From NCBI GenBank assembly GCA_017409345.1, contig JAFQSX010000004.1, forward strand, positions 169,870 to 233,869: 64,000 nt of DNA. Reading direction: 5' to 3'. Source of the stretch: Muribaculaceae bacterium (lineage in GTDB: Bacteria; Bacteroidota; Bacteroidia; Bacteroidales; Muribaculaceae). A program made the translations under genes and the position numbers. Shown piece by piece: positions 22,567 through 40,051 of this stretch (position 1 is its first letter; each line of letters starts with the position of its first letter). The notes beneath the pieces are model-generated. The model was not told the origin of the DNA, searched no databases, and worked only from the letters and a program-made list of their open reading frames with translations.

Positions 22567-25461
22567 ATGAGAATTTTTTATTTTTTAATCATCACTATTA
22601 TAAGTTCATTATTCATTGCTTGTGAAGATGGTTTTAATTATCTAAAACCAATTATTCCTCAAGATGAATTTATTGGCGATTTCAACACCCTTGAATTAGG
22701 AGCAGAAACTGAGAATTTTCACATCAATGACACGGTAACATGTTATATGATTGCGCCTGACAATAGCCAAATCTCGCGAAAATGCCATGTATCAAAAACA
22801 AATGGCAAAACAATAGTAAACTTTGAGCAAGGCCTTGCCGATGGCATTTATCGTTTGCTTTATTTTGAATACCAAATTGAGTCAAATGATAGCACAATCA
22901 CAATGCAATATGGTCTTGGTTGTCGTATTGAAATCTTCAAACAACAAGTCAGTCTATTAGATTCGTTTGATAAAACGATGCAAATGACAGGTAGTGGCAC
23001 TGAGGACGACCCATATATAGTAACCTGTGGTCCACATCTATATAATCTGACATTGGGAGTAAAAGACTTTTATGAATATGACAAATTCAATGGAGCCTAT
23101 TTCAAACAAGTAGCCGACATCTCACTTCATGATGCATCATATTATTGCAAACACGAAAATGGCTGGACTCCTATTGGCGATGTTGCATATCCATTTGTAG
23201 GGACATACGATGGTGGTGGTCATAAAATTACAAATATGTATAGCCACCACGAAGAACTTTGTGGAGTTGGTTTATTTGGGCATATAACTAATTCATCTAT
23301 TCAAAATCTCACAATCGTGAATGCAGATATCTCGGGCCCGGTTGGAGTTGGGGGAATCGCCGGTTGTCTTATGACATTGAGTGGGGAACGCACTACATCT
23401 TCAATTATTAATTGCAAAGTAAAAAACAGCAAAATTAAAGCAAGCGGAGATGGTGTTGCTACCGGTGGCTTAGTGGGAATGATCGACATGCATACAGTGG
23501 GAATGATTGAGCAATGCCAGTCGGAAGGAAATACAATCACGGCCGACTATAATGCCGGAGGTATTGTTGGTAGTAGCAGTGCTTATTCATTGACCTCAAT
23601 CGACTTGTGCAAAAACACAAGTACCGTTACAACCAACTATGCCGGAGCCGGAGGCATTATAGGTGTTGCTGATACGCTGTCGATAACAACAAGTAGCAAC
23701 TCTGGAGCTATAACCGGAGCTATAAAATATACGAGTGACAACGAAAACTCAATGAGTCGAGGCACCGGTGGCATTTGTGGCGGTTCAGGTGTGTCTTGGA
23801 TTTCAGGATGCGAAAATAACGGGACAATTACGGGGTATGACGGCGTAGGTGGAATTATAGGCACTACACGTCTTGCCTACACCGAGAGTAACGGTGCTTT
23901 ATATAACAGCACTTATTTGCGTTATTGCAAAAATACAGGAAACATATCAGCTCGCAATTTACATGCGGGGGGACTTTGTGGCGAGGCTCAATTGGGTTGC
24001 GTTGCATCAATAAACAATGGCACGGTTTCTGCGATGGATCATGTTGGAGGAATTGCCGGACACACTTCATTGTCGGTTATTCACAACTCAATAAGCACCG
24101 GAGCGATTAATGGGCGCAATTATGTAGCAGGCATATCGGCTCTATCCAATTCGGGAGTATATACCAATTGCCAGAACTATGGAATGATAAATGCAACAGG
24201 GTCTCACGCTGCCGGGATAGTCTCTCTATCGGGTAACAACACAATTATTCACTATTGTGGCAATCACAACAAAGTATCGGGTGCAAATTCTCCGGTTGGA
24301 GGTATAGCCGGTGAATTTGGCGACCCACGAGAATGGTCTCCGATAAACATTGCCGAGGTGGTATTTGGCAGTGCCGAAATTGCTCTTGCGTTTCTTGGCC
24401 CCACATTCGCAGTAATAGAACATGCAAAAGATGTAACCGGAACAGCAAAATATATAATGAAAGGGGTTGAATTGGGTATAGAAATGGTAATGAAAGTGCC
24501 ATCAACCACATTATGGGGCTATGGTGTAGATCATTTGGCCAACCCTCATCATATTGAAACGATAGAGACTGATATTAAGGCTGATTTAAACAATCGAGTA
24601 AATAATATCCTCTCTGAAATAAATGATGTTAGGGGTGAAATGCATTTTCAACTTGCCGACACTTTTTCTTCTGATGCATTTATAAATTATTCAAACAACA
24701 CAGTGTCGTTGTCAAATTATTTGATGCCGTTGTCGGGCAATGACGAGACAAATAATGACAATTTCTTTGAAAAAATAAATGACAAGATGAGTGAGCGAGC
24801 CGAGGAAATACACGAAAACAATACGAATAAGGAAATTGTATATACTGTTTTTGGTGCCGCAAGCATTATTGCGACAACCGTATGTGCTATTGGTGCGACT
24901 GTCGCATCAGGAGGTTTAGCAGCCGGATTTATAGTGACCGGCACTGTAGCAGGAGTTGTGGGCGGCATCAACTCAATTTCAAAAGGAGCAGCCGACTACA
25001 CTGACAACGTAGTGATTATTTCCCAATGTGTAAATGCTCATGAAATCTCTTGCAATGATATATCGTCTAATGAGGTAGGTGGTATAGTTGGGCATATCTA
25101 TGATCGTGGTGTGATTAGTGATTGCTTAAATACAGGAAATTTCCCTAATGATGGTGGACATTTAGCGGGAAAAGCCGACAATGAGGTTCAGATATTAAAC
25201 TCATTATCCTTGGTTGATAATTCCGACGCGAGTCTTATTGGGAAATCAGGCACTAATTGCAAAGTAGATTATTTATATTTTTATGACGCAAAAACCAACA
25301 CATTAGATCCTTGCGGAACAGCATTGTCGGCTGATGAGATTTCTGACCCTAATAGCTATGACGGCTGGGACATAGGCACTTCAAATAATCTATGGACTAT
25401 ACCCACTATCAGTTCGGGCAATTCATTCCCTGTTCCGTTCACCTCAGAAATGACAAAATAA
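22567..25461 (+). CDS. Surface lipoprotein with GLUG repeats and a hydrophobic helical insert
   Basis: A 964-residue lipoprotein. The lipobox LFIAC is followed by Glu-Asp, which in Bacteroides favours export to the cell surface. After a 200-residue N-terminal part come many GLUG-type repeats (VGGIAG, AGGIVG, GAGGIIG), each about 25-30 residues, expected to stack as a beta helix. Between about residues 590 and 815 the repeats stop. This insert holds two hydrophobic stretches (near 600-620 and 757-803, rich in Gly and Ala) separated by a long helical region. Repeats resume after it. GLUG proteins are usually adhesins. The insert is unusual and could anchor in a membrane. The next gene is a paralogue 21 bases on. 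Confidence 0.75.
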   Translation: MRIFYFLIITIISSLFIACEDGFNYLKPIIPQDEFIGDFNTLELGAETENFHINDTVTCYMIAPDNSQISRKCHVSKTNGKTIVNFEQGLADGIYRLLYFEYQIESNDSTITMQYGLGCRIEIFKQQVSLLDSFDKTMQMTGSGTEDDPYIVTCGPHLYNLTLGVKDFYEYDKFNGAYFKQVADISLHDASYYCKHENGWTPIGDVAYPFVGTYDGGGHKITNMYSHHEELCGVGLFGHITNSSIQNLTIVNADISGPVGVGGIAGCLMTLSGERTTSSIINCKVKNSKIKASGDGVATGGLVGMIDMHTVGMIEQCQSEGNTITADYNAGGIVGSSSAYSLTSIDLCKNTSTVTTNYAGAGGIIGVADTLSITTSSNSGAITGAIKYTSDNENSMSRGTGGICGGSGVSWISGCENNGTITGYDGVGGIIGTTRLAYTESNGALYNSTYLRYCKNTGNISARNLHAGGLCGEAQLGCVASINNGTVSAMDHVGGIAGHTSLSVIHNSISTGAINGRNYVAGISALSNSGVYTNCQNYGMINATGSHAAGIVSLSGNNTIIHYCGNHNKVSGANSPVGGIAGEFGDPREWSPINIAEVVFGSAEIALAFLGPTFAVIEHAKDVTGTAKYIMKGVELGIEMVMKVPSTTLWGYGVDHLANPHHIETIETDIKADLNNRVNNILSEINDVRGEMHFQLADTFSSDAFINYSNNTVSLSNYLMPLSGNDETNNDNFFEKINDKMSERAEEIHENNTNKEIVYTVFGAASIIATTVCAIGATVASGGLAAGFIVTGTVAGVVGGINSISKGAADYTDNVVIISQCVNAHEISCNDISSNEVGGIVGHIYDRGVISDCLNTGNFPNDGGHLAGKADNEVQILNSLSLVDNSDASLIGKSGTNCKVDYLYFYDAKTNTLDPCGTALSADEISDPNSYDGWDIGTSNNLWTIPTISSGNSFPVPFTSEMTK

Positions 25462-25482
25462 TTAACTAAACCATACTTAAAT

Positions 25483-28407
25483 ATGACTAAGACTTTAAAA
25501 CTATTACTATTGTCAATATTCGTTTTTAGCATTAACTCTTGTGATGATGAGTTTGTTAATATTTATGGGAACTCACGAGTGGAAAAATTTGATTCTCACC
25601 ATTTGAGTGTATTTCGCATACCGCATATATGCTCAACATCTGTCGTTGACAGCGATGTTGACATTATACAAATTAATGGTTATTACGTCGGCCGGCTCCA
25701 TGCCAATATTACACCGGTTAACGACGCAGAGTCGGAAATAGGATTGACAATTCCTATTGAAGCAACTATCCCCGATGGCTCTTATGTAATCAAGGTTGAT
25801 TCAATCTCCAACCGTTACATTGCCCAAATTGAGGATCAATTAATTGTTATCAAAGAGATTAACAACGGTGTTTATTCTGAATATATCGGTTCTCGCTTTA
25901 CCGATGGCTCCAGAAATAATCCATTCATGATTAATAGCAACGACAAATTCAATAAATTCATTTTTGCCCTTAGTAAAGACGAATATCATGGTGCCGGTTT
26001 TTATTTCAAGCAAACTGCTTCTTTTCAATGGTCAAACGATGAACAAAATGATGGAGAAGGATTAGCGTCACAATATTTTGCCGGCAATTACAATGGCGAT
26101 GACTTCTACTTAAGTGATGTTGTAATTAATGGTAAAAATGAAGCAGGAATTTTCAAGCAATTAATAAATGGAGCAACAATTTCAAATCTGAAAATAAACA
26201 ACATTAGCATTAGCAATGGAGAGAATTTAGGTGCAATAGCCGGCTTTGCTAAAAATACGGTAAAATTAAGTCACATTAATATATCCGGGAATATCTCAGG
26301 AAGTAATAACATTGGTGGGCTTATCGGAAGTTGTGCATATGGCTATATTTATATGGATAATATAAATATGGGTGCATCTATTTCCGGAACCAAAAACATT
26401 GGAGGAGCCATAGGTTATCTAAATTGCTATTGTTCTGTAGATAAATTTACGACAAAAAGTAGTTTTAGGGTAGGAAGTGTAAATGCTTCAGTTTCAAATA
26501 ATGCCGAAAATGTAGGTGGAGTTATTGGGTTAATTGACAACCATGAATTTAATATTACAAACACCGAAGTTCTGCACACATCATCAATCGATGACAATGC
26601 TCAGGTCATTACCGGGAATTGTAACGTGGGTGGATTAATCGGCAATATATTGTATTTATGGGAACCTCAAAGCTCCATTGATAATTGTCGAGTAATATCT
26701 CCTCTAAATGCCAATAATTATGGTGGTGGATTTATAGGTTATGCCGATATTGCACATAAACTTTCAATCACTAACAGCCAGTCATGTATAATTACTAAAC
26801 AAGGAAACTATATAGGAGGATTTATTGGCTACCTCAAATATTATAACGATAACGATGACTTGCTTACATTCAGCAACAACAAAGTTGTTGCAAGCGATAA
26901 CAGTGAAATTCAAATTAAAGGAGGAGATTATGTAGGAGGACTATTCGGCTATGTAAACGCAAAATCCCTATCATTGAAAGGCGAGAATTATATTATGGCT
27001 CCAATATCAGGGAACTCCCACGTTGGTGGTTTGGCGGGAGAAATCGAAGAAACAATTTTTAATATTGGCACTCCATTATATGGCAAATCAAGCACTCAAA
27101 TATCAGGATTACCAATCGAAGCCAACTCCATTGTAGGTGGGATTGTGGGATATATGGAGTCATCAACCCTAAAAGGGACTCAATCATTATATCCAACTTC
27201 GGGAATAAATCATTTTGATGACAGCAAAGCATCTGTTATTTGCACAGTTAAAGGCGAAGGTGACAAAGTAGGTGGAGCTGTAGGCTATGCCTATAAATCG
27301 GAAATTGAAGGCCTCGCAGTGAAAGCTACTGTTTCTAACTCAGGAGGAATATACACAGGAGGAATTGTAGGATATTTCGACGATGGAGATCTCGCCGTAA
27401 AGTCATGCTCTTTTTCAGGCATCATAACCGGCAACGATTATACCGGAGGTATTGTCGGCGAAATCAACAAACTCGGACAAATCACCCAATGTGTTAACTA
27501 TGGTGAAATTACCGGTGGACAAAAGACCGGTGGCATCTGTGGAAAAATCAACAATTCAGAAGATGAGCCATGGATTAACGAATGTGCCAATGTAGGGCCC
27601 GTTTCAGGCAAGCATTTTGTAGGGGGTATTGTTGGATACATCTCTGCCGATGGTGAAGGCAAAGACTGGACTAAAATTGCCCGAAGCGGAAATTACGGCA
27701 ACATCACAGCCTCAAGTAGTGATTGGGGGTGTGTAGGAGGCATTGTTGGCAAATGCGATTCCGACAAAATCAGAGTAAACCATTGTGCAAATCATGGAAC
27801 AATTACCGGGAATGGTTATTTCAAAGGGATTGGAGGCATTGCAGGCTCTCTTGGGCAAGATGCCGACGGATTAGAAGAATATGACAATGTCCATGTATAT
27901 AATTGTGCTAATACAGGGACTATTGTTTCAGACCGTTCTTCGAGTGCTCACATGGGGGGGATTGTTGGATATATGGAAGAAGGGAAATGTTTAGCCGAAG
28001 ATTCTCATGTTGAATCATGCTATAATTGTGGCAGTGTTGGTCCTGCAAAAGATGCCACGCATGGTGGCATAATCGGTCATTGCGACTATTATGTTGCATT
28101 GGAATATTGCATAAATTATGGCAATACTCATGACGCCGGAGAATCAATGATAGGAACAGTTGTAACGGGAGGCGTTGTTTATAATAACAACCTATATCAT
28201 CTTAGTGGAACCGGAGACCACTCCGGTCATAGTTGGAGTTCTACATCTTTTTTCGAAGACCAGATGAGCTCACTATCCACATTTGAAGGTTATAGTAGTG
28301 AAGATTGGGTTGTTGATCAGCAATTAAACATGCAAGGCAGTGGTGAAAGTTCTAAATCAAGAGTTATTCTCAAAGATTGCCCGTTCCAAAACATTGTTTA
28401 CAAATAA
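25483..28407 (+). CDS. Surface lipoprotein with GLUG repeats (paralogue)
   Basis: A 974-residue lipoprotein with lipobox SINSC followed by Asp-Asp-Glu, again the acidic signature of surface export. From about residue 220 to 900 it is a long series of GLUG-type repeats (IGGLIG, VGGVIG, TGGIVG and similar) with Asn, Ser and Cys-rich turns, predicted as one continuous beta helix. It lacks the hydrophobic insert of its neighbour. The two genes are co-transcribed and end at a strong terminator. A role in binding host or bacterial surfaces is likely from the family, but the ligand is not known. Confidence 0.75.
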   Translation: MTKTLKLLLLSIFVFSINSCDDEFVNIYGNSRVEKFDSHHLSVFRIPHICSTSVVDSDVDIIQINGYYVGRLHANITPVNDAESEIGLTIPIEATIPDGSYVIKVDSISNRYIAQIEDQLIVIKEINNGVYSEYIGSRFTDGSRNNPFMINSNDKFNKFIFALSKDEYHGAGFYFKQTASFQWSNDEQNDGEGLASQYFAGNYNGDDFYLSDVVINGKNEAGIFKQLINGATISNLKINNISISNGENLGAIAGFAKNTVKLSHINISGNISGSNNIGGLIGSCAYGYIYMDNINMGASISGTKNIGGAIGYLNCYCSVDKFTTKSSFRVGSVNASVSNNAENVGGVIGLIDNHEFNITNTEVLHTSSIDDNAQVITGNCNVGGLIGNILYLWEPQSSIDNCRVISPLNANNYGGGFIGYADIAHKLSITNSQSCIITKQGNYIGGFIGYLKYYNDNDDLLTFSNNKVVASDNSEIQIKGGDYVGGLFGYVNAKSLSLKGENYIMAPISGNSHVGGLAGEIEETIFNIGTPLYGKSSTQISGLPIEANSIVGGIVGYMESSTLKGTQSLYPTSGINHFDDSKASVICTVKGEGDKVGGAVGYAYKSEIEGLAVKATVSNSGGIYTGGIVGYFDDGDLAVKSCSFSGIITGNDYTGGIVGEINKLGQITQCVNYGEITGGQKTGGICGKINNSEDEPWINECANVGPVSGKHFVGGIVGYISADGEGKDWTKIARSGNYGNITASSSDWGCVGGIVGKCDSDKIRVNHCANHGTITGNGYFKGIGGIAGSLGQDADGLEEYDNVHVYNCANTGTIVSDRSSSAHMGGIVGYMEEGKCLAEDSHVESCYNCGSVGPAKDATHGGIIGHCDYYVALEYCINYGNTHDAGESMIGTVVTGGVVYNNNLYHLSGTGDHSGHSWSSTSFFEDQMSSLSTFEGYSSEDWVVDQQLNMQGSGESSKSRVILKDCPFQNIVYK

Positions 28408-28583: not shown

Positions 28584-30455
28584 ATGGAACAAGATTACAA
28601 CGCGATTATCGACCAAAAAGTCGCAGATATGATGGACGCGATTAAACGTCGCACCGAGCCCGAGGATATGCAACGCATAAAAGATGCGTTTGAATTAGCT
28701 CGCGAAGCACACAAAACTCAATTCCGCAAATCGGGCGAGCCCTATATCCTCCACCCCATTGCCGTAGCTCGCATTGTGGCCGAGGAATTAGAGCTTGGCG
28801 CCAACCCCATCATCGCGGCATTTCTTCATGATGTGGTTGAAGATACCGACTTCACTCTCGATGATATTCGCAAACGTTTTGGCGACGATGTAGCATTTCT
28901 TGTAGGAGTTGTCACTAAGAAGAAAAAAGACCGTTACGAGCGTTCGAAACAAGTCGACAACTATCAACAAATTCTTGAATCGGTGCAATTTGATGTGAGA
29001 GCATTGCTCATTAAACTTGCCGACCGCTTGCATAATATGCGCACGCTCGACAGCATGCGTCCCGACAAGCAAATGAAGATTGCAGGAGAAACCGACTATT
29101 TCTATGCCCCGCTTGCCAATCGTTTAGGGTTATATCATGTGAAGAGCGAATTGGAAAACCTATCGTTCCGTTATCGCTGTCCGCAAGAATATGCCGAGAT
29201 TGAGGCTCTACTCGCCGAAGAAAAAGAAAGTATCAAAGAGATGACCAAGACATTCCTATCGCGTATTTCCGAGGTATTCACCCGCGAAGGGATAAAGGCC
29301 CGCACCGAAATGCGTTTCCGCCCACCTTTCAGCATTTGGCGCAAGATGAAAAATAAAGGGTGCGATTTCTCTCATGTAACAGGAAAACATTATATCCGTA
29401 TCATATATCCCAATATGACTCAACTATCTGAAAAAGACATGAGTCTTCGCATATATTCAGTGCTTACCGATGTATTTAAAGAGCGTCCCGGTAGTGTTGC
29501 CAATTATATAAATGCTCCAAAAGAAAACGGATATCAAAGTTTTCATGTAAAGTTACTCTCTCCAAGAGGAAAATGGGAAGAAATTCACATTTCATCAGAA
29601 CGAATGGTGCGCAATTCCAGACTAGGATGTACTGCCGAACGCTCTGAAAAAAATATAAAAGCATGGCTTGATAAATTCCGTGAAATTCTAAAAGATATTG
29701 CACACCATAGCAATGAAATAGACTTTATGGAAGGTGTCACTTCTTCATTCTATAATGATGACATCATGGTATTTACCCCTAAAGGGAAAGCCATTATTCT
29801 CCCCAAAAATGCCACTGCCCTTGACTTTGCCTACGAAATTCATAGCCAAGTGGGGCAACATGCTAAATATGCCCGCATAAACGGAAGATTGTCGTCGGTA
29901 AAAACCGTGCTACAACGAGGCGACTGCATAGAAATAGGCACTAACGAAAAGGTTAATCCAAAACCCGATTGGCTTGATCATGTTCTCACATATAAAGCTA
30001 AAAAACAAATCCGCACATTCCTCTCTCATCAAAAACGCGTAAAATATATTCTTTGCCCTAATTGCCACCCCATTCCGGGCGAAGAGGTTATCGGTTTTAA
30101 GAGTTCACGAGGGGAAGTTACACTCCACAAACGTAACTGTAAAAGTGCCATCAGCATGGCTTCGCAACAAGGAGATTCTATTGTAGCAGTAAACTTTGAG
30201 GAAGATCCTGAATTTCTTTATCCAGTAAGATTGATGATCCGAGGCATTGACCGCTATCATTTGCTCAGCGACTTGGTTGATTGCATCACCGAACGTCAAC
30301 GACTATCGATGACCGAACTCTCGACCAACACCATCGACAACATAGCCGAATGTACCATCGACTTCGCAATCCACTCGGTGAAAGAACTTAACGAAACTAT
30401 CGAAAGCATCAATGCGATTGACGGAATCGACGAGGTTTACCGCGTAGAAATCTAA
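28584..30455 (+). CDS. RelA/SpoT family protein with degenerate synthetase domain
   Basis: 623 residues, domain order HD hydrolase, synthetase-like, TGS, zinc-finger-like, ACT. The hydrolase site is intact: H57 in ILHP, H82-D83 in FLHDVVEDT, and D147 in LADRLHNMRTL. The synthetase region (about 240-360) is worn: the catalytic Asp of the DxxAxR motif aligns with Gly267 (GKHYIR), EVQIRT reads EEIHIS, and the AExGxAAHWxYK motif is absent. NGYQSFH is kept. The TGS domain (VFTPKG...ATALDFAYEIH) and a final ACT domain are present. I infer a mainly (p)ppGpp-hydrolysing enzyme; a second Rel protein elsewhere would be the synthetase. Confidence 0.88.
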   Translation: MEQDYNAIIDQKVADMMDAIKRRTEPEDMQRIKDAFELAREAHKTQFRKSGEPYILHPIAVARIVAEELELGANPIIAAFLHDVVEDTDFTLDDIRKRFGDDVAFLVGVVTKKKKDRYERSKQVDNYQQILESVQFDVRALLIKLADRLHNMRTLDSMRPDKQMKIAGETDYFYAPLANRLGLYHVKSELENLSFRYRCPQEYAEIEALLAEEKESIKEMTKTFLSRISEVFTREGIKARTEMRFRPPFSIWRKMKNKGCDFSHVTGKHYIRIIYPNMTQLSEKDMSLRIYSVLTDVFKERPGSVANYINAPKENGYQSFHVKLLSPRGKWEEIHISSERMVRNSRLGCTAERSEKNIKAWLDKFREILKDIAHHSNEIDFMEGVTSSFYNDDIMVFTPKGKAIILPKNATALDFAYEIHSQVGQHAKYARINGRLSSVKTVLQRGDCIEIGTNEKVNPKPDWLDHVLTYKAKKQIRTFLSHQKRVKYILCPNCHPIPGEEVIGFKSSRGEVTLHKRNCKSAISMASQQGDSIVAVNFEEDPEFLYPVRLMIRGIDRYHLLSDLVDCITERQRLSMTELSTNTIDNIAECTIDFAIHSVKELNETIESINAIDGIDEVYRVEI

Positions 30456-30527
30456 TTATTTTGCATCGACAATGCGTTCAAATCCTACTTTTAAGGCTAT
30501 TCAGAGATGATTTTGGAAAAATTTCCA

Positions 30528-30535
30528 TACCTTTG
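30528..30535 (+). promoter_or_regulatory. -7 box of the serine hydrolase gene
   Basis: TACCTTTG, 22 bases before the ATG at 30558. It supports that start over the upstream ATG at 30507. Confidence 0.55.
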
Positions 30536-30557
30536 CAGAAAATTTAGACGAACTTAT

Positions 30558-31829
30558 ATGAAACAATATATATTGATTTTAATTGGAATATTGTGCTTAC
30601 AGTCGTGTGTACTCACAAAAGGAATCAAATATGGAAATGCATCAGTTGATGATTATACGATATTTGATCAAGACACGGTTCACAAAGGTACTAATTCATA
30701 CAATTTCCACGAGAAACGACAGAACATCAATTTGGTAGATACTCTTAAGTTTGAAATTTATCGTTCTAAAGCCGACACTCTTCTCAACTTAACACTCCGA
30801 GATGCGATGGACCATTATGATGTACCATCTGCTGCAATTATCATTCAGAACGACACTATCCTTTTTGAGCATTATAGTGGCGGTTGGGACAGAGATAGCC
30901 AATCCTGCATTTTTTCGGTTACAAAAACTGTTACAAGCTTACTCTGTGGCATAGCCCTTAAAGATGGTTATATAAAGAGTTTAAGTGACCCTGTAACAGA
31001 ATATATTACTGAACTCAAAGATGCAGATCCAATGTTCTCTCAACTTAAGATTAATCATTTGCTTGATATGACTGCGGGGCTCAAATTCAATGAAGATTAT
31101 AGTTGGAATCCATTTTCAAAAATGGCTAAGCTATATATGGGAAACAACACTCTTAAAGTCCTGAAAAGTCTAAAATTTACTAACACTCCTGGTGAAAACT
31201 TTTCATACGACTCTGCCACCACAGCAATACTTGGAATTGTTATCGAGAGAGCAACCGGAAAACCATATGCACAATACCTATCAAAAAAGGTGTGGCAACC
31301 ATTAGGAATGGAGTGTGATGCACTAATTGGACTTGACAGTAAAAAGAGTCATACTGCTAAAAGTTTCGCTGGCTTAACTACGAATGTTAGAGATTTAGCA
31401 AAGATTGGCAAGTTGTTTTTAAATAAAGGTATTTGCGATGGAGTACAAATTGTTGACTCTGCCTTCGTAAAACGCTGTTTAAGTACACATACTGCAGGTA
31501 TATCAGGCAAAGTTCAACGCGAGTATTCATATTCATGGTATTGGGGGATTGCCGATGAAGTAGGTGGCAAACGCAAATTTTTCAATACTCTTGAAGAATT
31601 AGAGCAATATTATAAGAATCACCCTGAGAAGAAGGTTTATCAAATAAAGAAAAACCTAAATAATGGTTATTTTGCGGTATTGCATAATGGAGGTTTCTGG
31701 GGTTATGGACTCTATGGTCAGGTACTATATGTGAACCCAAGCAAAAATATGATTGCAGTATATCTTGGAGCAGACAGACTTAAAGATTTTAGTATACTCT
31801 TTGATCAACTCAGCATTTATTTAGACTAA
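30558..31829 (+). CDS. Beta-lactamase-fold serine hydrolase lipoprotein
   Basis: About 423 residues from the ATG at 30558. The signal ends in a lipobox (CLQSC) with Val-Leu after the cysteine, so it is likely periplasm-facing. The class C beta-lactamase / S12 peptidase fold is shown by the nucleophile motif SVTK (in IFSVTKTVTSLLCG), the Tyr motif YDSATTAILG where most members have YxN, and a late HNGGFWGYG strand in the KTG position. Such proteins hydrolyse peptides or esters of cell-wall type; resistance is not implied. The 3' end abuts the stump of an S41 peptidase gene, a sign of past rearrangement. Confidence 0.82.
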   Translation: MKQYILILIGILCLQSCVLTKGIKYGNASVDDYTIFDQDTVHKGTNSYNFHEKRQNINLVDTLKFEIYRSKADTLLNLTLRDAMDHYDVPSAAIIIQNDTILFEHYSGGWDRDSQSCIFSVTKTVTSLLCGIALKDGYIKSLSDPVTEYITELKDADPMFSQLKINHLLDMTAGLKFNEDYSWNPFSKMAKLYMGNNTLKVLKSLKFTNTPGENFSYDSATTAILGIVIERATGKPYAQYLSKKVWQPLGMECDALIGLDSKKSHTAKSFAGLTTNVRDLAKIGKLFLNKGICDGVQIVDSAFVKRCLSTHTAGISGKVQREYSYSWYWGIADEVGGKRKFFNTLEELEQYYKNHPEKKVYQIKKNLNNGYFAVLHNGGFWGYGLYGQVLYVNPSKNMIAVYLGADRLKDFSILFDQLSIYLD

Positions 31830-32057
31830 CCGAGAAAAAACTGCTGGCGATATAGGGTGTGCTCCTAAGAATTTCACCTCAAAATATGGTATTTGGTTCA
31901 GAATTCCTACTCGTGATCCACACTTCTCTCCTAAAGGCTTTCCTATGGAAGGAGTAAGTATTGAACCGCACCATGAGGTCAAACAAACGGTTATAGACTT
32001 TTTTACGATAAAGACACCGCCATAGAATATGTATTGAATAAATTGATTTATAATTAA
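31825..32057 (+). pseudogene. C-terminal remnant of an S41 (C-terminal processing) peptidase
   Basis: A reading frame starting inside the serine-hydrolase stop codon encodes about 65 residues including TAGDIGCAPKNF and FSPKGFPMEGVSIEPHHEVK, typical of the C-terminal end of S41 peptidases. The frame is broken in a run of six T near 32000. One frame over it resumes as YDKDTAIEYVLNKL, which is the expected ending. One missing T explains the break. No S41 catalytic region is present upstream, so this is a truncated, frameshifted fragment left by recombination. Confidence 0.65.
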
Positions 32058-32088
32058 TAAAGAATAACAGGATTAAGGGCTTAAATAG

Positions 32089-32126
32089 AGAATACGAGAC
32101 TCATTGCGAATCTCGTATTCTTTATT
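32089..32126 (+). terminator. Terminator after the S41 remnant
   Basis: An 11-bp perfect stem AGAATACGAGA/TCTCGTATTCT (32089-32099 with 32111-32121), then TTATTT. Confidence 0.75.
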
Positions 32127-32160
32127 TACGGGACTATCCATAATTTTGTGTAAATAGAGA

Positions 32161-32189
32161 TTACAGGGTTCAAAAAACGAACTCTGTAA
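32161..32189 (-). terminator. Hairpin just after the RT-HD gene
   Basis: An 11-bp stem (TTACAGGGTTC with GAACTCTGTAA, one wobble) lies 4 bases past the RT stop. It lacks a clear T tract on the minus strand, so it may be a weak terminator or a structured 3' end. Confidence 0.45.
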
Positions 32190-32192
32190 ATT

Positions 32193-35100
32193 TTATTCCT
32201 CTAGAAAGTCTTGAACACTATCAAACATATCTGCATCTAACCTTATTTCATCACGATAGTAAATAATAAAGTTAATATTTGTCTTTAACAACGAATTATT
32301 TACCGAATAGAGATAATCATTCAGTGCAATTAATTCTTTGATTAACCAGTCATGCTTCCGCATCATCCAACGACAGATTATAGTACAACATTCTTCTGGA
32401 CACTCATCTAAAGAATCTAAACCACCTACAATTCTAATATGAAGGCAGTCATCCTTCTTTTCGCTTTCTTCTAACTTACACCCATTACATTTCTTTGTAT
32501 TTTTAGACACAGTCAATTGCTTCACATTCAAATGTAGTTCTATGTTTATTTTCTCGGTAATAGGTTTGTCACCCATTTCAGCATTTTCATCGGTGGGATA
32601 ATCTGTTTTTAGTACTATTTTATCTGTCACCAGATGTGATATCCAATGAAACTTTGATGTGGGTGACAAATTTCTCAAATTTTGTTTTAACAAATGATAG
32701 TTTACTCTATCATTCGCCACATCTAGTAAATCAGCCAATCTGATGAGAATCATCAAATATTTCAAACTTACAGTATCATCTTGAGCCCTAGATTTTAGGC
32801 CATAAACATCCATTACATCATATCCATGGCTCTCTGATACTTTAGCCACAAAAGACAATAACGTCGGCTCTAAATAGTTTAATAAAGAATTTGATCGTTC
32901 ACGAATAAACTTGGCACTATCCTTGGCATGGTTATCTCTAACCAAAGCCTCAAAATACCCATACACTTCATTGAACACCTTGATTAAGAAATTACCCGCA
33001 TCTTTATAACGAGAGTCCTTTTTACCAGTATAGTCTATCGAATCAAATTTTTTGACCTCATTTTGCATTTGGCTCATTAAGTCTGAAATCAAAGTCATAT
33101 TCTTTCCATTTTCAGAACTTAACCTACCCAAATCTGGATGAATAACCATACTGATGTCGTGCAAATAGCACGCCAAAAAAAGAATATAATAGTCCACATT
33201 CTTTAGTGCAAAATAGTCTATTCTATTCGTTAGTTCTAACGATTTTGTGATAAGAGTTACTGCATGCTCTTCATTATGGAGCGTATATGAATTTAAAAAT
33301 TTAGAACCATTGTACCACAATCCTTTTGTAAGTCGATGGGTCACAATCAACGAATCCACCCATTCAGGATTACGTACATTCTTGATGAAGATATTCAATA
33401 CTTCAAGCACTCCAATATCAATTCCCATTTGGTTGGAGATGTCTTTTTCATTGATATGTTCTACAAACTCTTCAAATCGCTCTAAATTAAAGTTTTTATT
33501 CCTTAAATAGGCTAATATTCTAAGTTCTACGTACTTAAATCGTCTGGCATTCCTTTTTGATAATGCCAGAGAATCCGAAGGAATTACATCTATGATTTCT
33601 GAATAAAAGACATTCAATATCTTACGCTGATATTCTGTAGAGGCTTTCATCACAAATTTTGTAAATTGTGCCTCTTCAAAACCTTGGTTCTGCATTTTGT
33701 TTATGGATTCCTTGGTTTCTGTGTCTTTGTCCTCCCTCTTTACAATAGACATAAATCCCCGCAACTTGTCCAATTGCTTGTCAGAATCCATAATACATTT
33801 TAGCCCATTAAAGTTCTCTCTGGCCCATCGTATCAGCGAAACATAAGAATCCTGGGGCATCGTTTTTATTATACAAGATGTCTCAACGTCCTTAGCATAG
33901 AACAAGGAATCTTGTTTCCCTTGTATATTTACATTACATTTAGAAAGTAACTGTTTTTCAAATTCAATTATCTTCTCCTTGAAATCATTAGCCTCTTCTT
34001 TCCTAAGATTTTGGATAATAAGACGATATTCCGTTTGGAAGATATCCTCTTCATACTGTTCGAAAAATTTCTCGGGATCAGTAGCTTTCTCTAAGAAACG
34101 TTCTCTGAAGTCGTTTAAATTCGGTTCTCCTTCTTCTCTGATTTTCAATAGTCGATTGCGATAAAGGAAGTACTTCTTAAACCTTCGCAAAAGTTTAAGT
34201 TTAGAAGCGAGCACATCACCGTTCTTTCCTTCTTTTTTTGCTTTATCTTGTTTATCAACCAGTTTGCCTATCTCTCGAGAAACAACTTTGTCAAGAGCTT
34301 CCAATTTCTTTAGAGACACATAATCGTCTATCTCATCCAAATTATACGATAGATCCGAATTCATGTATGTTTCCCGAGATATATTTGCTATTGGCCCATA
34401 TTGGTTGTCTGCATCATCTATATGAATAAAGGTACTTTTCCCTTTTTCGTGGAATTTTATTGTGTAATCTAATTTGTTTTGAAAAGCTAGATAGCCTTCA
34501 TCGATATAATTACTTATTGTGCTTTTATCATTTTTAGCTTTTTCACATTCCTCTTTTAAGCCATCATTAAGTACATCTATTCTTTTCTTAAACTGATCTT
34601 CATCCAATTCAGACTGTATATATATTACTGAGTCATCAACATAGAAATAGGCATCTCCTTTAAAGGTCTTGTCTTGCATCAATAGCCGTTTAACTTCAAT
34701 CATGCAGAGGTTACCAAAAAAGTATGACTGAGGTAATCCCTGTGGTATTCCATAGTTCATATATTGATTTGCACAGGATAACTCAGTGTCTTTAGGATAG
34801 TAATACTGTTTCCATGGTTCTATATTGTTTTTTGATATGTTGAAATATGACAGTTTGGCTACAGCTATACCAAGTGTCTCCTTATCGTCCTCATAAGTTT
34901 TCGATAGTTTACTTGTGATGTAGTCATATAGCATCTTAGGAGATATTGATGGATAGAAATTCTTTATATCCAAACTTACTTCTGTCAGATAGTTATGGCT
35001 CTTTTGGTATGCCCTACAATGTTCTATAATCTCATCGGTATACTCTTTGTATTTTGTCTGCCACTTGTGAAATAAATACTGAACATTCGTACTAGGAATA

Positions 35101-35567
35101 TTCCCATAGAAATTGTGGGGCAGTAACTTGGATAAGTCTGATAGTTTTCTAACCCCTTTATCTAAGTCGTCATCAAACATCAAACAGTTCAAGATACTTA
35201 CCATACAAATCAAATCTATCAGTCTTGCCGTGTGCATCGGACGGAAGTCCAATTTATTATCTTCGTATTTCTTGATTTTGAAATATACTATTATATCAAA
35301 CAAGTTTTTCTTGTCTAACAACACCCATTCCATCTTTTGATGGCAACATTTTATAACCTTAGAAATCAAGTCTATATTATGCTTATCAGCGAGTGCATAA
35401 TATAATTCGAGATCATTGGCTGCAATTGTTTCCTCCACCTTGCCTTCATTATGGAGATATACAGGTTTCGATGTGTCCAATAACCCTTTGTCGAACACAT
35501 ATGATTCCATGCAGAATATCGAATTGAAGATATTCCGTTCGTCTAATATCTTTTCAAACAGTTTCAT
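32193..35567 (-). CDS. Reverse transcriptase fused to C-terminal HD domain
   Basis: A 1124-residue protein. The N-terminal half is a reverse transcriptase: motif A LDIKNFYPSIS (D200), motif B GIPQGLPQS (273-281) and motif C YVDD (309-312), with all three catalytic aspartates. A charged coiled-coil-like linker spans about 415-660. The C-terminal half (about 740-1000) is an HD-type phosphohydrolase: HNEEH (764-768), YLHD (801-804), a DNHAKDS segment (H880), SESHGYD (912-918) and RLADLLD (943-949). Six cysteines in 1027-1061 could bind zinc. It lacks maturase or integrase domains and the SQ motif of diversity-generating RTs. It overlaps the preceding gene by 14 bases. I infer a defence RT whose DNA or RNA product controls the HD effector. 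Confidence 0.85.
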   Translation of the reverse strand: MKLFEKILDERNIFNSIFCMESYVFDKGLLDTSKPVYLHNEGKVEETIAANDLELYYALADKHNIDLISKVIKCCHQKMEWVLLDKKNLFDIIVYFKIKKYEDNKLDFRPMHTARLIDLICMVSILNCLMFDDDLDKGVRKLSDLSKLLPHNFYGNIPSTNVQYLFHKWQTKYKEYTDEIIEHCRAYQKSHNYLTEVSLDIKNFYPSISPKMLYDYITSKLSKTYEDDKETLGIAVAKLSYFNISKNNIEPWKQYYYPKDTELSCANQYMNYGIPQGLPQSYFFGNLCMIEVKRLLMQDKTFKGDAYFYVDDSVIYIQSELDEDQFKKRIDVLNDGLKEECEKAKNDKSTISNYIDEGYLAFQNKLDYTIKFHEKGKSTFIHIDDADNQYGPIANISRETYMNSDLSYNLDEIDDYVSLKKLEALDKVVSREIGKLVDKQDKAKKEGKNGDVLASKLKLLRRFKKYFLYRNRLLKIREEGEPNLNDFRERFLEKATDPEKFFEQYEEDIFQTEYRLIIQNLRKEEANDFKEKIIEFEKQLLSKCNVNIQGKQDSLFYAKDVETSCIIKTMPQDSYVSLIRWARENFNGLKCIMDSDKQLDKLRGFMSIVKREDKDTETKESINKMQNQGFEEAQFTKFVMKASTEYQRKILNVFYSEIIDVIPSDSLALSKRNARRFKYVELRILAYLRNKNFNLERFEEFVEHINEKDISNQMGIDIGVLEVLNIFIKNVRNPEWVDSLIVTHRLTKGLWYNGSKFLNSYTLHNEEHAVTLITKSLELTNRIDYFALKNVDYYILFLACYLHDISMVIHPDLGRLSSENGKNMTLISDLMSQMQNEVKKFDSIDYTGKKDSRYKDAGNFLIKVFNEVYGYFEALVRDNHAKDSAKFIRERSNSLLNYLEPTLLSFVAKVSESHGYDVMDVYGLKSRAQDDTVSLKYLMILIRLADLLDVANDRVNYHLLKQNLRNLSPTSKFHWISHLVTDKIVLKTDYPTDENAEMGDKPITEKINIELHLNVKQLTVSKNTKKCNGCKLEESEKKDDCLHIRIVGGLDSLDECPEECCTIICRWMMRKHDWLIKELIALNDYLYSVNNSLLKTNINFIIYYRDEIRLDADMFDSVQDFLEE

Positions 35568-36243
35568 ATTCTGTATTTTTTTTAGATTCGTTATTTATCA
35601 TATCAAAAACAGAATCTATAAGATTCTTCATATCTGAGGGTGCTTTTCTATTACTGGTCTTTAATAAATTATTCTTGATTTTTACAACGATATTATAATC
35701 GCTCTTAACCATTGCCAAACGATAAAAGTTTTCCCAAAGCAAACGAGACTTCACAAATGGCACTTCACTAGTTAGTTCGACATCCAAGATGTCATGAAAT
35801 ACCACATGAATGTTGTTTCCTGGCCATGATTTACCAGTTAGCAAATTAATGTCAACAAGTACATTATTAAGAAAGCGAATAGAATTAACTAAAAATTCTA
35901 TATAGTTAGTTCTGCATTTCCTCATGTAATTCCATGAATAGTTAAATTGTGGATTTTGAGAAACAAAAAACATGTAACCTGACAATTGTTCGTCACCATC
36001 CACTTTTATTTCAATCGCATTTCTTAACTTCTCGTTACTATTATAGTTCTCTGCTTTGTACAAATCAGCCAAACATAACAACATTTGAACAACAATTAAC
36101 TTCGATTTGTACTCACGATTTGACATGTAGACAGACTCAGGTATTTCAATGCCATCTGTCGAATCTGCTTGTATATCATTAAATAGCATGTCAAAGGTAT
36201 AATTCCCCTTGTCCATAACTGTTTTTATATTACTCTCATCCAT
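35554..36243 (-). CDS. Unknown middle protein of the primase-RT operon
   Basis: About 229 residues from the ATG at 36243, which overlaps the primase stop by 8 bases (ATGGATGA); a longer start at 36291 is unlikely. No signal, membrane segment or catalytic motif is seen. The sequence looks mostly helical, with a basic C-terminal part (KIKNNLLKTSNRKAPSDMK). Its 3' end overlaps the RT start. The double overlap indicates coupled translation, so it probably works in one complex with the primase and RT, perhaps as an adaptor. Confidence 0.65.
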   Translation of the reverse strand: MDESNIKTVMDKGNYTFDMLFNDIQADSTDGIEIPESVYMSNREYKSKLIVVQMLLCLADLYKAENYNSNEKLRNAIEIKVDGDEQLSGYMFFVSQNPQFNYSWNYMRKCRTNYIEFLVNSIRFLNNVLVDINLLTGKSWPGNNIHVVFHDILDVELTSEVPFVKSRLLWENFYRLAMVKSDYNIVVKIKNNLLKTSNRKAPSDMKNLIDSVFDMINNESKKNTEYETV

Positions 36244-37279
36244 TTGTTTCCTGTTTTTTGATATAATAATCGCAATAATCTTTAACACCACTGGGCAAAA
36301 CTTCCGCCCTTACGATTGAATAGTGGTTGATAAAGAAACGCCGTAATGTCATAAAAGCTTTTTCTCCTGCCGAATCTTGATCTGGATACATATGTAATTC
36401 GTAGTTCTTTAACAATATCAAGTCTTCTATCGGTAGGATCGTTGCACTCGGTATTGCCACTGCATTCAAACCATCAGACAACAAAGCCAGACAATCCGTA
36501 ATTCCCTCACTAATATACAGTTTGTCACCTCTACGAAGACTATTTAGAATTGGCAAATTATACAATCTTGTTTTCTGTGATGACATAAACTGAAACCGAG
36601 GAACTTTTTCATTAGTGCCCAAATATCTTGATTGTACTCCTATCAGATTTCCATCCATATCATAGTAGGGCAATAATAAGCACGGTGTGTAGAAGTAAAA
36701 GTATAATCCATCATTACCTCGCCGAACAAGCCCTGTTTTTAAGCAGACATCCTCACCAAACCTCTTGATTAATGCATTTACCATATTCAAAGAATTAACA
36801 ACTGAGCCTATTCGCAGTTTCTTGACAACCCCTTCATCCAAATGTCGTTCATTAAACAGAAACATTTTAGCAGGGTCTAAAAGTGTTGCATTATTGATTA
36901 ACCAAGTATATACCTCTTTATTAAATATAACAGTTTCTTCCTTGTGTTTGGTTAAGTATTTTTGAGTGGATGTTCTTTTAGGGAAATTTCTATTATTTCC
37001 ATCTAGGTACCAAACATTAAATTTTTGACCAAGCCAAATACATGCCTCTTGAAAGTTCCACCCCTCCTTGTCCTGTACCAGTTTAATGGGACCACCACCT
37101 ACTCCACATACCCAACATTTATAAATATTCTTAGACGTCGAGAATGTGATGCTTGGATTGTGGTCGTCATGCTTAAAGCAAAGAGCTTTATGCCTTCTAA
37201 CTTCTATACCAAGTCTGTCTGCGACTTCTTCTATGGGAAGTTCATTTAAACGACTAATAATATTTTGAGGAATATTCAT
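36236..37279 (-). CDS. Short DnaG-like primase (CHC2 zinc finger + TOPRIM)
   Basis: A 347-residue DNA-primase-like protein. The N-terminal zinc finger has ligands C34, H37, C55 and C58 (CFKH...CWVCG) followed by the GGGPIKLV turn of DnaG-type CHC2 domains. The catalytic core ends in a TOPRIM fold with YISEGITD (E258) and MYPDQDSAG (D300, D302) as metal ligands. It is about half the length of housekeeping DnaG and has no helicase-binding C-terminal domain, so it is not the replicative primase. It is the first gene of an overlapping operon with an RT-HD fusion, and it may supply primers for the reverse transcriptase. Confidence 0.85.
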   Translation of the reverse strand: MNIPQNIISRLNELPIEEVADRLGIEVRRHKALCFKHDDHNPSITFSTSKNIYKCWVCGVGGGPIKLVQDKEGWNFQEACIWLGQKFNVWYLDGNNRNFPKRTSTQKYLTKHKEETVIFNKEVYTWLINNATLLDPAKMFLFNERHLDEGVVKKLRIGSVVNSLNMVNALIKRFGEDVCLKTGLVRRGNDGLYFYFYTPCLLLPYYDMDGNLIGVQSRYLGTNEKVPRFQFMSSQKTRLYNLPILNSLRRGDKLYISEGITDCLALLSDGLNAVAIPSATILPIEDLILLKNYELHMYPDQDSAGEKAFMTLRRFFINHYSIVRAEVLPSGVKDYCDYYIKKQETNG

Positions 37280-37362
37280 GTTACTATTTTGCTACTTATC
37301 CTTTAATGTTAATTCTGACATTTATTTATTGGTTCTTAAATTCTTCAAGTCAAATTGTGTAG

Positions 37363-38703
37363 TCATTTTCTCTCCGCCACAAACTTCTTCAACAAAAAAG
37401 TCAAGAAGTAAGGGAAGGTATAGAACTTGCCATTGAAGCCAATATTCTTATATCCCAACTTGATGCCATATTTCACATCAGGATATTTATCTTCTTTCAG
37501 CAAATTATTCAATGATGCTGTTGCGTTATCATTGGATTTTACTTCTACAGGCATAAGGGAATCAGCATCACGTACAAAGAAATCCATTTCAAGAGAAGGT
37601 TTGTCACTGCTGTAGTAATAGAGATTGTAGCCTTGTTTTACAAGCATATCTCCCACTATATTTTCGTATATCGCTCCTTTGTATGTGCCCAGATTCTTAT
37701 TAGCTCTCAAATCCTCCTGAGCTTCTTCATCGAGCGATGCAATTAAGAGTCCAGTATCTTTATAATAAATCTTATATAGTTTAGGATCATAGTTCCCCTT
37801 AAGGGGAAGTTCAGGGAGATTCAGGCAGTAGCAGATGTTTATAACACCGGCATCAGCAAGCCATTCCACACAACCAACATAATCTCTATTACGAGCATTC
37901 TTACCAATCTTGGTTATCTGGAAACGTTTGTTTTCTTTTGCCAAGAATGTAGAGATATGGTTATAAACAGCTTTAACCTTTGCTTTATCCAAACCTTCCA
38001 CATATTTGGTGATATCTTCCTCATAGTCTTTGAGCAATTGTTTCTGTATACCCAAAGTTCCACTGAAGTTCTTGTTCTTAATATATGTATTCACTACCTC
38101 AGGCATACCTCCGATAGTTGCATAATCACGAAACAATTCAAAAAGAACATCCATTTGCAATTTAGCAAGTGGCTTGATTTCCAACATGTGATGATATAGT
38201 CCATCTATAAAATCCTCATTGTAACCTTTAGCCCAAAGGAATTCCTCGAAATCCATGGAATGCATTTCATAATCTTCCTTATAGCCAACACTATTGGATT
38301 CTATCTCCCTATAGTTTATTCCCATCAATGACCCGGAACAGATAACATCGAAGCGTCCATCAAGTTTAAAAAATTTCAATGAAGTAGCACAATTGGGACA
38401 AGCTTGGAGCTCATCAAAAAAGAAAAGAGTTTCACCTGGAACAAACTTGAGCTCAGGATTTAGCAACGATATGTTTTTGAGAATGGTATCAACCTCAAAA
38501 CCATCCTCAAAAATATTCTTATATTTAGGTTGCTCTACAAAATTAATCTGGATAACAGTTTTATAGTTTTGACTGGCAAACCACTCGATAGAGCGTGTTT
38601 TTCCAATCTGACGGGCACCTTTAATAATTAGCGGTTTTCTATCAGGATTGTTTTTCCAAGCCGTCAAATAGCTATCAACCTTTCTTCTAAGCAATTTATC
38701 CAT
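37363..38703 (-). CDS. AAA_14 ATPase with DUF4143 domain
   Basis: A 446-residue ATPase. Walker A is KGARQIGKT (residues about 28-36) and Walker B is LFFFDELQ near 95-102, followed by an SGS sensor segment. The C-terminal part (about 200-420) is the DUF4143 region, which carries a nuclease-like EVKS motif (MPVEVKSND near 390). The family is widespread in Bacteroidota and poorly understood; some members behave as defence or toxin-like factors. It is separated from the primase gene by 83 bases with no clear promoter, so read-through into the RT operon is possible. Four iterons lie in its promoter. Confidence 0.85.
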   Translation of the reverse strand: MDKLLRRKVDSYLTAWKNNPDRKPLIIKGARQIGKTRSIEWFASQNYKTVIQINFVEQPKYKNIFEDGFEVDTILKNISLLNPELKFVPGETLFFFDELQACPNCATSLKFFKLDGRFDVICSGSLMGINYREIESNSVGYKEDYEMHSMDFEEFLWAKGYNEDFIDGLYHHMLEIKPLAKLQMDVLFELFRDYATIGGMPEVVNTYIKNKNFSGTLGIQKQLLKDYEEDITKYVEGLDKAKVKAVYNHISTFLAKENKRFQITKIGKNARNRDYVGCVEWLADAGVINICYCLNLPELPLKGNYDPKLYKIYYKDTGLLIASLDEEAQEDLRANKNLGTYKGAIYENIVGDMLVKQGYNLYYYSSDKPSLEMDFFVRDADSLMPVEVKSNDNATASLNNLLKEDKYPDVKYGIKLGYKNIGFNGKFYTFPYFLTFLLKKFVAERK

Positions 38704-38727
38704 ATCTAAAATCTTTGATTACAAGTG

Positions 38728-38735
38728 CAAAGATA
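38728..38735 (-). promoter_or_regulatory. -7 box of the AAA_14 ATPase gene
   Basis: TATCTTTG on the minus strand, 24 bases upstream of the ATG. The first iteron (38741-38753) falls where the -33 element would be, so a protein bound there should affect transcription. Confidence 0.6.
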
Positions 38736-38740
38736 ATACT

Positions 38741-38851
38741 TTTCACATTATCCAAGCCATAAAATTGCATTTATTTCACATTATCCACTCTTATTCACCT
38801 TATAATTTCACATAATCCCAATTATAATGATGTTATTATTTCACATTTTCC
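38741..38851. repeat. Four 13-bp iterons, TTTCACATTATCC
   Basis: Copies at 38741-38753 (exact), 38774-38786 (exact), 38806-38818 (TTTCACATAATCC) and 38839-38851 (TTTCACATTTTCC). Start-to-start distances are 33, 32 and 33 bp, about three helical turns, so all sites face one side of the DNA. The sequence from 38852 to 39099 holds no gene; only a weak AAAGGAA/TTCCTTT hairpin is seen near 39000. Confidence 0.75.
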
Positions 38852-39099
38852 ATTTTTATAATGGTTACAAACCTCCAAAAACAGATTCTGTTATCGGAGA
38901 TAATAGATAATACGAACCCAAAAACTTAGATGGTGAACAGAAAATTCAGAATGCCACCCAAAATGATACTCAATAGTAATATTTTAATAATAAAGGAACC
39001 AATTATTCCTTTTCTACTCAATTATTATCTATTTTCACTTTTCCCCGAATATACATCATTGCTTTGATTACTCTATTTTCACTTTTAAATTAAAAACAT

Positions 39100-39107
39100 T
39101 ATCTTTG
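39100..39107 (+). promoter_or_regulatory. -7 box of metA
   Basis: TATCTTTG, 26 bases before the ATG. The leader is too short for a SAM riboswitch. Confidence 0.55.
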
Positions 39108-39133
39108 TGGAGTAATTCAAAAAATATATTTTT

Positions 39134-40051
39134 ATGCCAGTTAGAGTTCCGGTATCACTTCCGGCTGTTGAAACGTTAAGATCAGAAAATATTTTTGTCA
39201 TCGATGAGCAACGAGCATCGTCGCAAGACATTCGTCCCTTGCGCATTGCGATACTCAATCTTATGCCGTTGAAAATCATGACCGAAACAGATCTTCTGCG
39301 CCTCATCTCTAACACACCTCTACAAATCGAACTTGATTTTATCGACACCGATAGTCACGTGTCGAAAAACACTCCTCGCGAGCATATCGAAACTTTTTAC
39401 AAAAAATTTGACGACATTAAGCACAACAATTACGACGGTTTGATTATCACCGGAGCACCTGTTGAAAAAGTGGCGTTTGAAGATGTGGATTATTGGCAAG
39501 AATTAACCGAGATTTTTGATTGGGCAAAAAAGCATGTTACTTCTACCCTATACATTTGTTGGGCTGCACTAGCCGGGCTATACCACCATTATGGTGTACC
39601 CAAATATGTGCTCGACCACAAAATATCGGGAGTATTCAAACATCGCATTGACGATGATTTAAATCCTATATTCCGTGGATTTGACGATGAGTTTTATGTC
39701 CCACATAGCCGATATAGCGAAGTTCGACGCGAAGACATTGAAAAGGTTGAAGGTTTAAAAATTATAGCCGAAAGCGCTGAAAGTGGCATATATATGGTAA
39801 TGGCTCGTGGTGGTCGTGAATTTTTCATCACAGGACACTCTGAATATTCGCCAGGCACTCTCGACTTTGAATATCATCGCGATCTCGAAAAAGGTATAAA
39901 ACCAGCAATTCCAGTCAACTACTACCTCAATGACGACCCCACACAGCAACCTATTGTGCGCTGGCGTTCACATGCCAATTTATTATTCTCAAATTGGCTC
40001 AACTATTTCGTATACCAAGAAACTCCTTACGACATTCGCGAGATTAAATAA
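39134..40051 (+). CDS. metA: Homoserine O-acyltransferase MetA (probably acetyl-specific)
   Basis: A 305-residue enzyme that acylates homoserine, the first committed step to methionine. The family pattern is complete: [14 protein letters not shown] near residue 40, the nucleophile cysteine in [10 protein letters not shown] (about residue 142), and the catalytic His and Glu in [11 protein letters not shown] (about 235-245). The residue after TGAPV is Glu (TGAPVEKV). In studied enzymes Glu at this place (residue 111) goes with acetyl-CoA and Gly with succinyl-CoA, so acetyl-CoA is the likely donor. It stands alone, with an acyltransferase-3 gene 28 bases downstream that may share the transcript. 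Confidence 0.93.

Follow-up and report, generated by a model that had tools for sequence, protein, structure and literature searches.

Reverse transcriptases (RTs) of the UG/Abi groups are sorted into classes by a scheme that, in the papers that use it, is said to go back to Mestre et al. 2022. Class 3 of that scheme joins an RT to a nitrilase or a phosphohydrolase (PMC13275509, PMC12489045, PMC13174585; these and all papers below are cited from excerpts), and its member DRT1 (UG1) is described as a template-free enzyme, protein-primed at S402, in which DNA synthesis activates a fused nitrilase (PMC13275509). The same excerpts report that DNA adducts of DRT1 drive dormant filaments, and call DRT1 a minimal retron (PMC13275509). 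Here we describe a three-gene operon from a 64,000-nucleotide stretch of a Muribaculaceae bacterium genome (contig JAFQSX010000004.1; hereafter the window), which encodes a separate DnaG-type primase, a middle protein (MID) and an RT with a C-terminal HD domain. By its profile matches the operon belongs to UG24, an already catalogued group of UG/Abi RTs, and it is probably a defence system; we favour, at a probability of roughly 0.4, an abortive system resembling class 3, whose fused HD phosphohydrolase would be controlled by primed DNA synthesis, with MID as adaptor.

The three open reading frames (ORFs) all lie on the minus strand, overlap one another and span 32193-37279, the RT gene coming last:

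36236-37279, minus strand: gene 1, primase, 347 residues
35554-36243, minus strand: gene 2, MID, 229 residues from an ATG (245 from an upstream GTG in the program-made ORF list)
32193-35567, minus strand: gene 3, RT-HD, 1124 residues

The overlaps, 8 nucleotides (nt) between primase and MID (36236-36243) and 14 nt between MID and RT-HD (35554-35567), agree with those given in the initial annotation of this locus. That annotation had also proposed a new defence system, on the ground that no described group was known to combine a separate CHC2/TOPRIM primase with a C-terminal HD effector, and on this point it has to be revised. The RT-HD protein matches the PADLOC model RT_UG24 with 1197.4 bits (E=0; residues 2-1123 on positions 3-1035 of 1036), and residues 701-1124 alone reach 544.5 bits on model positions 642-1035, so that the RT-HD fusion belongs to UG24 as modelled; the primase matches the partner model RTasDnaG-like (363.7 bits, E=4e-109), and both models are classed under DRT in PADLOC-DB 2.0.0. 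The next-best PADLOC groups for the RT lie far below (UG17 41.8 bits, Drt1a 40.5, UG6 25.0). Given these two model matches, the operon is largely covered by a DRT type that already has a name and these partners, the MID gene being the component that PADLOC does not model; RT-phosphohydrolase fusions are moreover already part of published class 3 (PMC13275509, PMC12489045). In the literature searched, from an incomplete library, we found a single relevant mention of UG24, a table row, among the papers listed (20 of 29 in a second search), and no DRT number, phage assay or mechanism for it; nor did we find a paper there pairing HD-CE with an RT, and of seven listed papers on HD-CE and conflict none is on this domain by title.

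The arrangement recurs well beyond the window, as the initial annotation had suggested checking. Fourteen loci were read for RT homologues (the window, L002, L003, L004, L005, L008, L022, L023, L024, L028, L029, L038, L039 and L040), of which L023, L039 and L040 are 96-98% alike over their common part and so are not independent; the UG24-type PADLOC identification was also obtained for L022, L028, L029 and L039. RT identity to the window runs from 91 to 34% across the aligned loci and is 97% for L002. In 12 loci the sequence extends upstream of the middle gene (L002 begins inside MID and L023 inside the RT), and 11 of these 12 have the order primase, middle gene, RT, which is kept down to RT identities of 34-44% (the L040 primase is truncated by the contig end). 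RT and primase trees give congruent groupings: the window with L003, L022 with L038 and L024, and L028 with L029. Ratios of nonsynonymous to synonymous substitution (dN/dS) are 0.13-0.23 for the RT in pairs with dS < 0.5, values at larger distances being saturated, and 0.16 for the primase in the one pair with dS < 1. Together, the low dN/dS of close pairs and the recurrence of the gene order in divergent genomes argue that the three-gene unit is more than a chance association.

The residues expected of each enzyme can be placed on the window as follows:

34467-35078, minus strand: RT core, residues 164-367, with D200, IPQG and YVDD (PADLOC and alignment); the cross-matches to other UG groups fall here
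34632-34643, minus strand: catalytic YVDD (residues 309-312), the same in all 10 aligned RTs
32601-33290, minus strand: HD-CE domain, residues 760-989, with H764, H768, H803-D804 and D946 (Pfam PF24391, 2.4e-26)
32352-32405, minus strand: possible C-terminal metal site, C1061, C1065 and H1072, invariant across 9 of 9 RTs
37106-37180, minus strand: primase zinc ligands C34, H37, C55 and C58, identical in 6 of 6 aligned rows
36266-36517, minus strand: primase TOPRIM domain, residues 255-338, with E258, D300 and D302 (Pfam Toprim_2), identical in 8 of 8 rows

All the motif residues that had been noted initially stand at their quoted positions and are conserved; the IPQG motif reads IPQG in 4 of 10 aligned RTs, IAQG in 5 and VAQG in 1. 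D200 is identical in all 10, and H764, H768, H803, D804 and D946 are identical in the nine RTs that reach the HD domain, the L024 RT breaking off before it. The cluster C1061/C1065/H1072 could possibly bind metal; C1056 and C1030 are each kept in 7 of 9. No Pfam RT model, RVT_1 and GIIM included, matched the window RT at E<=1, so its identification as an RT rests on PADLOC and the motifs, and a comparison of the HD region with solved structures returned a best E of 0.15, to a chain that is not an HD protein. Residues 701-1000 are the best-conserved of five RT segments in all four comparisons made (98.3% identity to L003, 95.0% to L004, 87.7% to L005 and 85.3% to L008), as would be expected if the HD region were the effector.

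This conservation bears on a different division of labour, in which the DNA product would itself be the toxin: primase and RT would make harmful DNA on infection, and the HD domain would act as a brake that removes deoxynucleoside triphosphates (dNTPs) or precursors of the product from uninfected cells. HD domains often hydrolyse nucleotides, which fits such a brake. DRT4 and DRT9 are reported to act by toxic DNA products (PMC13213688), but here conservation is higher in the HD region than in the RT core, and DRT1, in class 3, uses its fused enzyme as effector (PMC13275509), and we consider a toxic product somewhat unlikely.

The window primase consists of a zinc domain and a TOPRIM core without the C-terminal helicase-binding part (the NCBIfam dnaG model is matched at 31-344 of 414), from which we infer that this DnaG-type enzyme probably serves the RT and not the replisome. 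Pfam supports both parts (Zn_ribbon_DnaG 2e-12, Toprim_2 3e-5), DNAG_N falls slightly below its cut-off (2e-5, 25.2 bits against 26), and the nearest solved chain is a DNA primase, 2au3 (E 3e-22). The zinc ligands are also present in L029 in the eight-row primase alignment, while the L028 primase lacks the whole zinc part. The RTasDnaG-like model is not specific to the operon, since it matches housekeeping DnaG in 11 of 14 control genomes; the operon primases of L003 and L005 score 371.1 and 352.7 bits on it, and other matches in four UG24-bearing genomes 94.7-144.3 bits.

The middle gene is the least familiar member of the unit. MID gave no usable match in Pfam, PADLOC, NCBIfam or PHROGs and none in the PDB, and a structure predicted from four sequences was too poor for a structure search (predicted local distance difference test score, pLDDT, 54.8). 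All 13 loci whose sequence covers this place have a gene in it, and in ten of them it is of the window's type, a call based on our A4 profile for L028 (1.7e-12), L029 (1.9e-6), L039 (3e-11) and L040 (2.2e-11) and on direct similarity for the others. In L022, L024 and L038 a protein of 280-294 residues stands at this position instead of the 229-residue one; BLASTP finds no match between the two types, profile-profile comparison gives E 0.088, and the three proteins score 5.1 (L024), -1.3 (L022) and 3.6 (L038) bits on the profile. MID occurs in 1 of 198 genomes of the family, the window's own, and is a single match in 9 of 13 UG24-bearing genomes or records, each time at the UG24 locus. Its dN/dS of 0.38-0.48 in close pairs exceeds the RT and primase values. 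MID thus looks like a fast-evolving dedicated partner of the UG24 RT, one without a family name in the libraries scanned.

Read as an abortive system of the class 3 kind, the operon might work as follows, each element of the scheme (priming, DNA synthesis, gating, nucleotide substrate) being extrapolated from DRT1 and the domain plan. The initial annotation had proposed a similar logic, which is plausible. The primase would lay down a short primer, or cap single strands of DNA, for instance intermediates of phage replication; the RT core would extend the primer into DNA without a dedicated non-coding RNA (ncRNA) template. MID would tether the primase to RT-HD and may also offer a surface for sensing phage. 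The state of the HD domain would be set by DNA synthesis, or by DNA bound within the complex, much as DNA adducts set the DRT1 nitrilase; on infection the HD enzyme would be released or switched on and would hydrolyse nucleotides, stopping cell and phage alike.

Several observations weigh against this scheme, most strongly the missing primase of L004, the primase-free DRT1 and the split class signal of the RT core. The defence-type neighbours of UG24 loci (listed below) are a tally without a background control, and such families are common. Although RT-HD has the domain plan of class 3, an RT plus a phosphohydrolase (HD-CE, 2.4e-26), the cross-matches of its RT core are split between class 2 UG17/DRT10 (41.8 bits) and class 3 DRT1 (40.5 bits), which leaves class 3 by RT descent unproven; UG17 is the better of the two in the window protein, not in L022, L028, L029 or L039. 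DRT1, being protein-primed, works without a primase (PMC13275509). L004 has an intact MID and RT-HD and no adjoining primase, and its genome holds a single RTasDnaG-like match, at housekeeping level; with the L028 primase lacking its zinc part, this suggests that the primase may be dispensable. DNA similarity between L004 and the window starts exactly at the MID start codon, and the primase position is taken by two radical-SAM genes and then a short His/Ser-rich ORF (L004:3978-6844), together resembling a His-Xaa-Ser peptide system. Finally, flanking sequence is shared within two groups of loci: L022 and L038 have flanks in common on both sides, similarity running about 290 nt past a downstream AbiGi gene, and L039, L040 and L023 stay similar for about 265 nt past the RT stop, so that an ncRNA is possible in these two groups.

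Such an ncRNA, overlooked, would give templated synthesis like that of UG17/DRT10 with an HD effector added, a reading favoured by these common flanks and by the slight lean of the window RT core towards UG17, which L022, L028, L029 and L039 do not show. In the window's own clade, however, the unit ends abruptly. Among the window and L002-L005, DNA similarity stops 1-7 nt past the RT stop, even at 97.6% identity, and where both sides have a primase it stops 0-9 nt before the primase start; a boundary this close to the genes (at most 9 nt) speaks against an ncRNA conserved beside them in this clade. L003 and L005 have a DUF1016 nuclease gene immediately upstream in common, as a separate block. 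Rfam gave no match on 30400-39200 up to E=1, and the gap before the window primase folds no better than shuffled sequence, as does a 141-nt part of the stretch common to L039. Nor is there RNA-like conservation of codons, runs of identical codons being no longer than in shuffles (43-439 of 500 shuffles reached the observed length in nine comparisons), and no SLATT partner adjoins the RT in the loci read (by Pfam names for part of them). We rejected ncRNA templating as distinctly unlikely. One structured element does lie directly after the RT:

32085-32192, minus strand: two hairpins, fold z -7.1

A plus-strand terminator-like site sits at 32161-32189, such sites being no commoner than in shuffles, and 32083-32129 is kept at 87% in the sister genome G829 and not in other UG24 loci; the hairpins probably serve transcription termination, outside the mobile unit. 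Promoter-like sites are fewer than in shuffles.

A retron-like toxin-antitoxin arrangement is also conceivable, with the RT's DNA product keeping the HD domain off until phage nucleases or recombinases remove it. The filament-driving adducts of DRT1 and its description as a minimal retron (PMC13275509) would suit this arrangement, but Rfam finds no msr-msd-like RNA (E<=1) and the NCBIfam model retron_St85 scores 23.9 bits against a cut-off of 235, results on which a retron proper was rejected and which make the arrangement unlikely in our judgement. A group II intron was rejected as well (no maturase domain in Pfam, no intron RNA in Rfam at E<=1).

The group is sparse and appears to come and go. 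Counting RT_UG24 or RT protein matches, with the window's own genome included, UG24 RTs occur in 4 of 198 genomes of the family, 2 of 393 of the order and 1 of 395 of the phylum; the class-level scan gave 3 of 395, two of them weak HD-only matches, one genus 6 of 111 and the family of genome G111 1 of 15. The RT search of a genome contig collection found four loci, and named UG24 records are Bacteroidales (the hosts of L028 and L029 left out). Of 12 genomes of the window's genus, the other 11 have no RT match, and four of these were read at the site. G829 retains a 60-codon primase stub (L062 near 7149-7330, minus strand) and the flanking genes, with no MID or RT; in G879 the two flanking genes adjoin (71 nt) and the entire 30.5-39.1 kb stretch is absent; G905 has a 620-nt gap without similarity, and G313 matched on one side only. 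The stub in G829 and the empty site in G879 point to turnover of the sort expected of defence genes.

These surveys also speak to a role outside defence, as a repair or replication module or the remnant of a mobile element. Primase and RT are both replication-type enzymes, and L028 and L029 come from viral-collection contigs, where they lie beside integrase or transposase-type genes; in that collection the RT query alone found nothing, an RT alignment found these two loci, later scans returned the same two, and a primase alignment scan gave 75 pattern stretches, none a relative. Yet neither of two different RT queries found a match at E<=1e-5 among 72,556 plasmids or 50,697 phage records, the conserved three-gene unit of the window's clade carries neither recombinase nor origin, and the RT has no group II intron maturase domain. 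We judge a non-defence role very improbable.

A bolder form of our preferred abortive scheme, which we put forward as doubtful, would make this the first defence RT primed by a dedicated DnaG-type enzyme: RNA-primed DNA synthesis on phage single strands would be the alarm, MID the specificity factor and HD the killer, all carried by a gene-precise three-gene mobile unit without an ncRNA. The loci define a minimal unit of primase, MID and RT-HD, with conserved residues suited to mutation, and include natural variants: L004 has lost or never had the primase, the L028 primase is without its zinc part, and L022 and L038 carry an added AbiGi gene. With these, it becomes testable whether a defence RT uses a separate primase and whether a DNA product gates the HD enzyme.

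The AbiGi-family gene overlaps the RT 3' end by 17 nt in L022 (12342-13067) and by 8 nt in L038 (9866-10585), and is a possible fourth component in that subgroup. Near other UG24 operons lie DUF1016 nuclease genes (L003, L004, L005 and L029), SLFN_AlbA_2 genes (L003, L004 and L039), an integrase (L024 and L029) and an AAA_14/DUF4143 gene (L028 and the window, where this ATPase gene, 37363-38703, is directly upstream). The last was considered as a member of the unit and rejected, L003 and L005 having the three genes and not this one. In L008, which adjoins what look from their sequence like sugar-modification-type genes, a 431-residue gene (L008:5656-6951) begins 2 nt beyond the RT stop and matches nothing in Pfam or PADLOC. 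Elsewhere in the window, 22567-28407 holds two neighbouring long genes of 964 and 974 residues, the first without a Pfam match and the second with many repeated GG-containing motifs by eye.

Set beside the described systems, the operon agrees most closely with UG24 as modelled in PADLOC, sharing a full-length RT match that includes the HD domain and an RTasDnaG-like primase, and differs in a MID gene that has no PADLOC model. With DRT1, its nearest characterised relative by domain plan, it shares an RT fused to a C-terminal small-molecule enzyme and an RT core cross-match of 40.5 bits, but that enzyme is a nitrilase in DRT1 and an HD domain here (no nitrilase match in the window proteins by Pfam or PADLOC), and DRT1 has no separate primase or MID. 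The window primase also matches a DnaG-like part at the start of the RT_UG29 model (1.3e-29); UG29 unites primase and RT in one model of 2280 positions, whereas the window has separate genes, and RT_UG29 gave no match at E<=1e-60 in 198 genomes of the family. UG10/DRT7 likewise pairs a primase function with an RT, though as a primase-polymerase fusion (PMC8934634, PMC13213688) in place of a separate DnaG/TOPRIM enzyme, and shows no PADLOC cross-match. UG17/DRT10, the other RT core cross-match (41.8 bits), is a class 2 system with an ncRNA and a SLATT protein (PMC12632851), neither of which was found at the window. UG24 itself is catalogued; what the present analysis adds to it is a dedicated MID gene, an exact three-gene unit and a set of natural variants.

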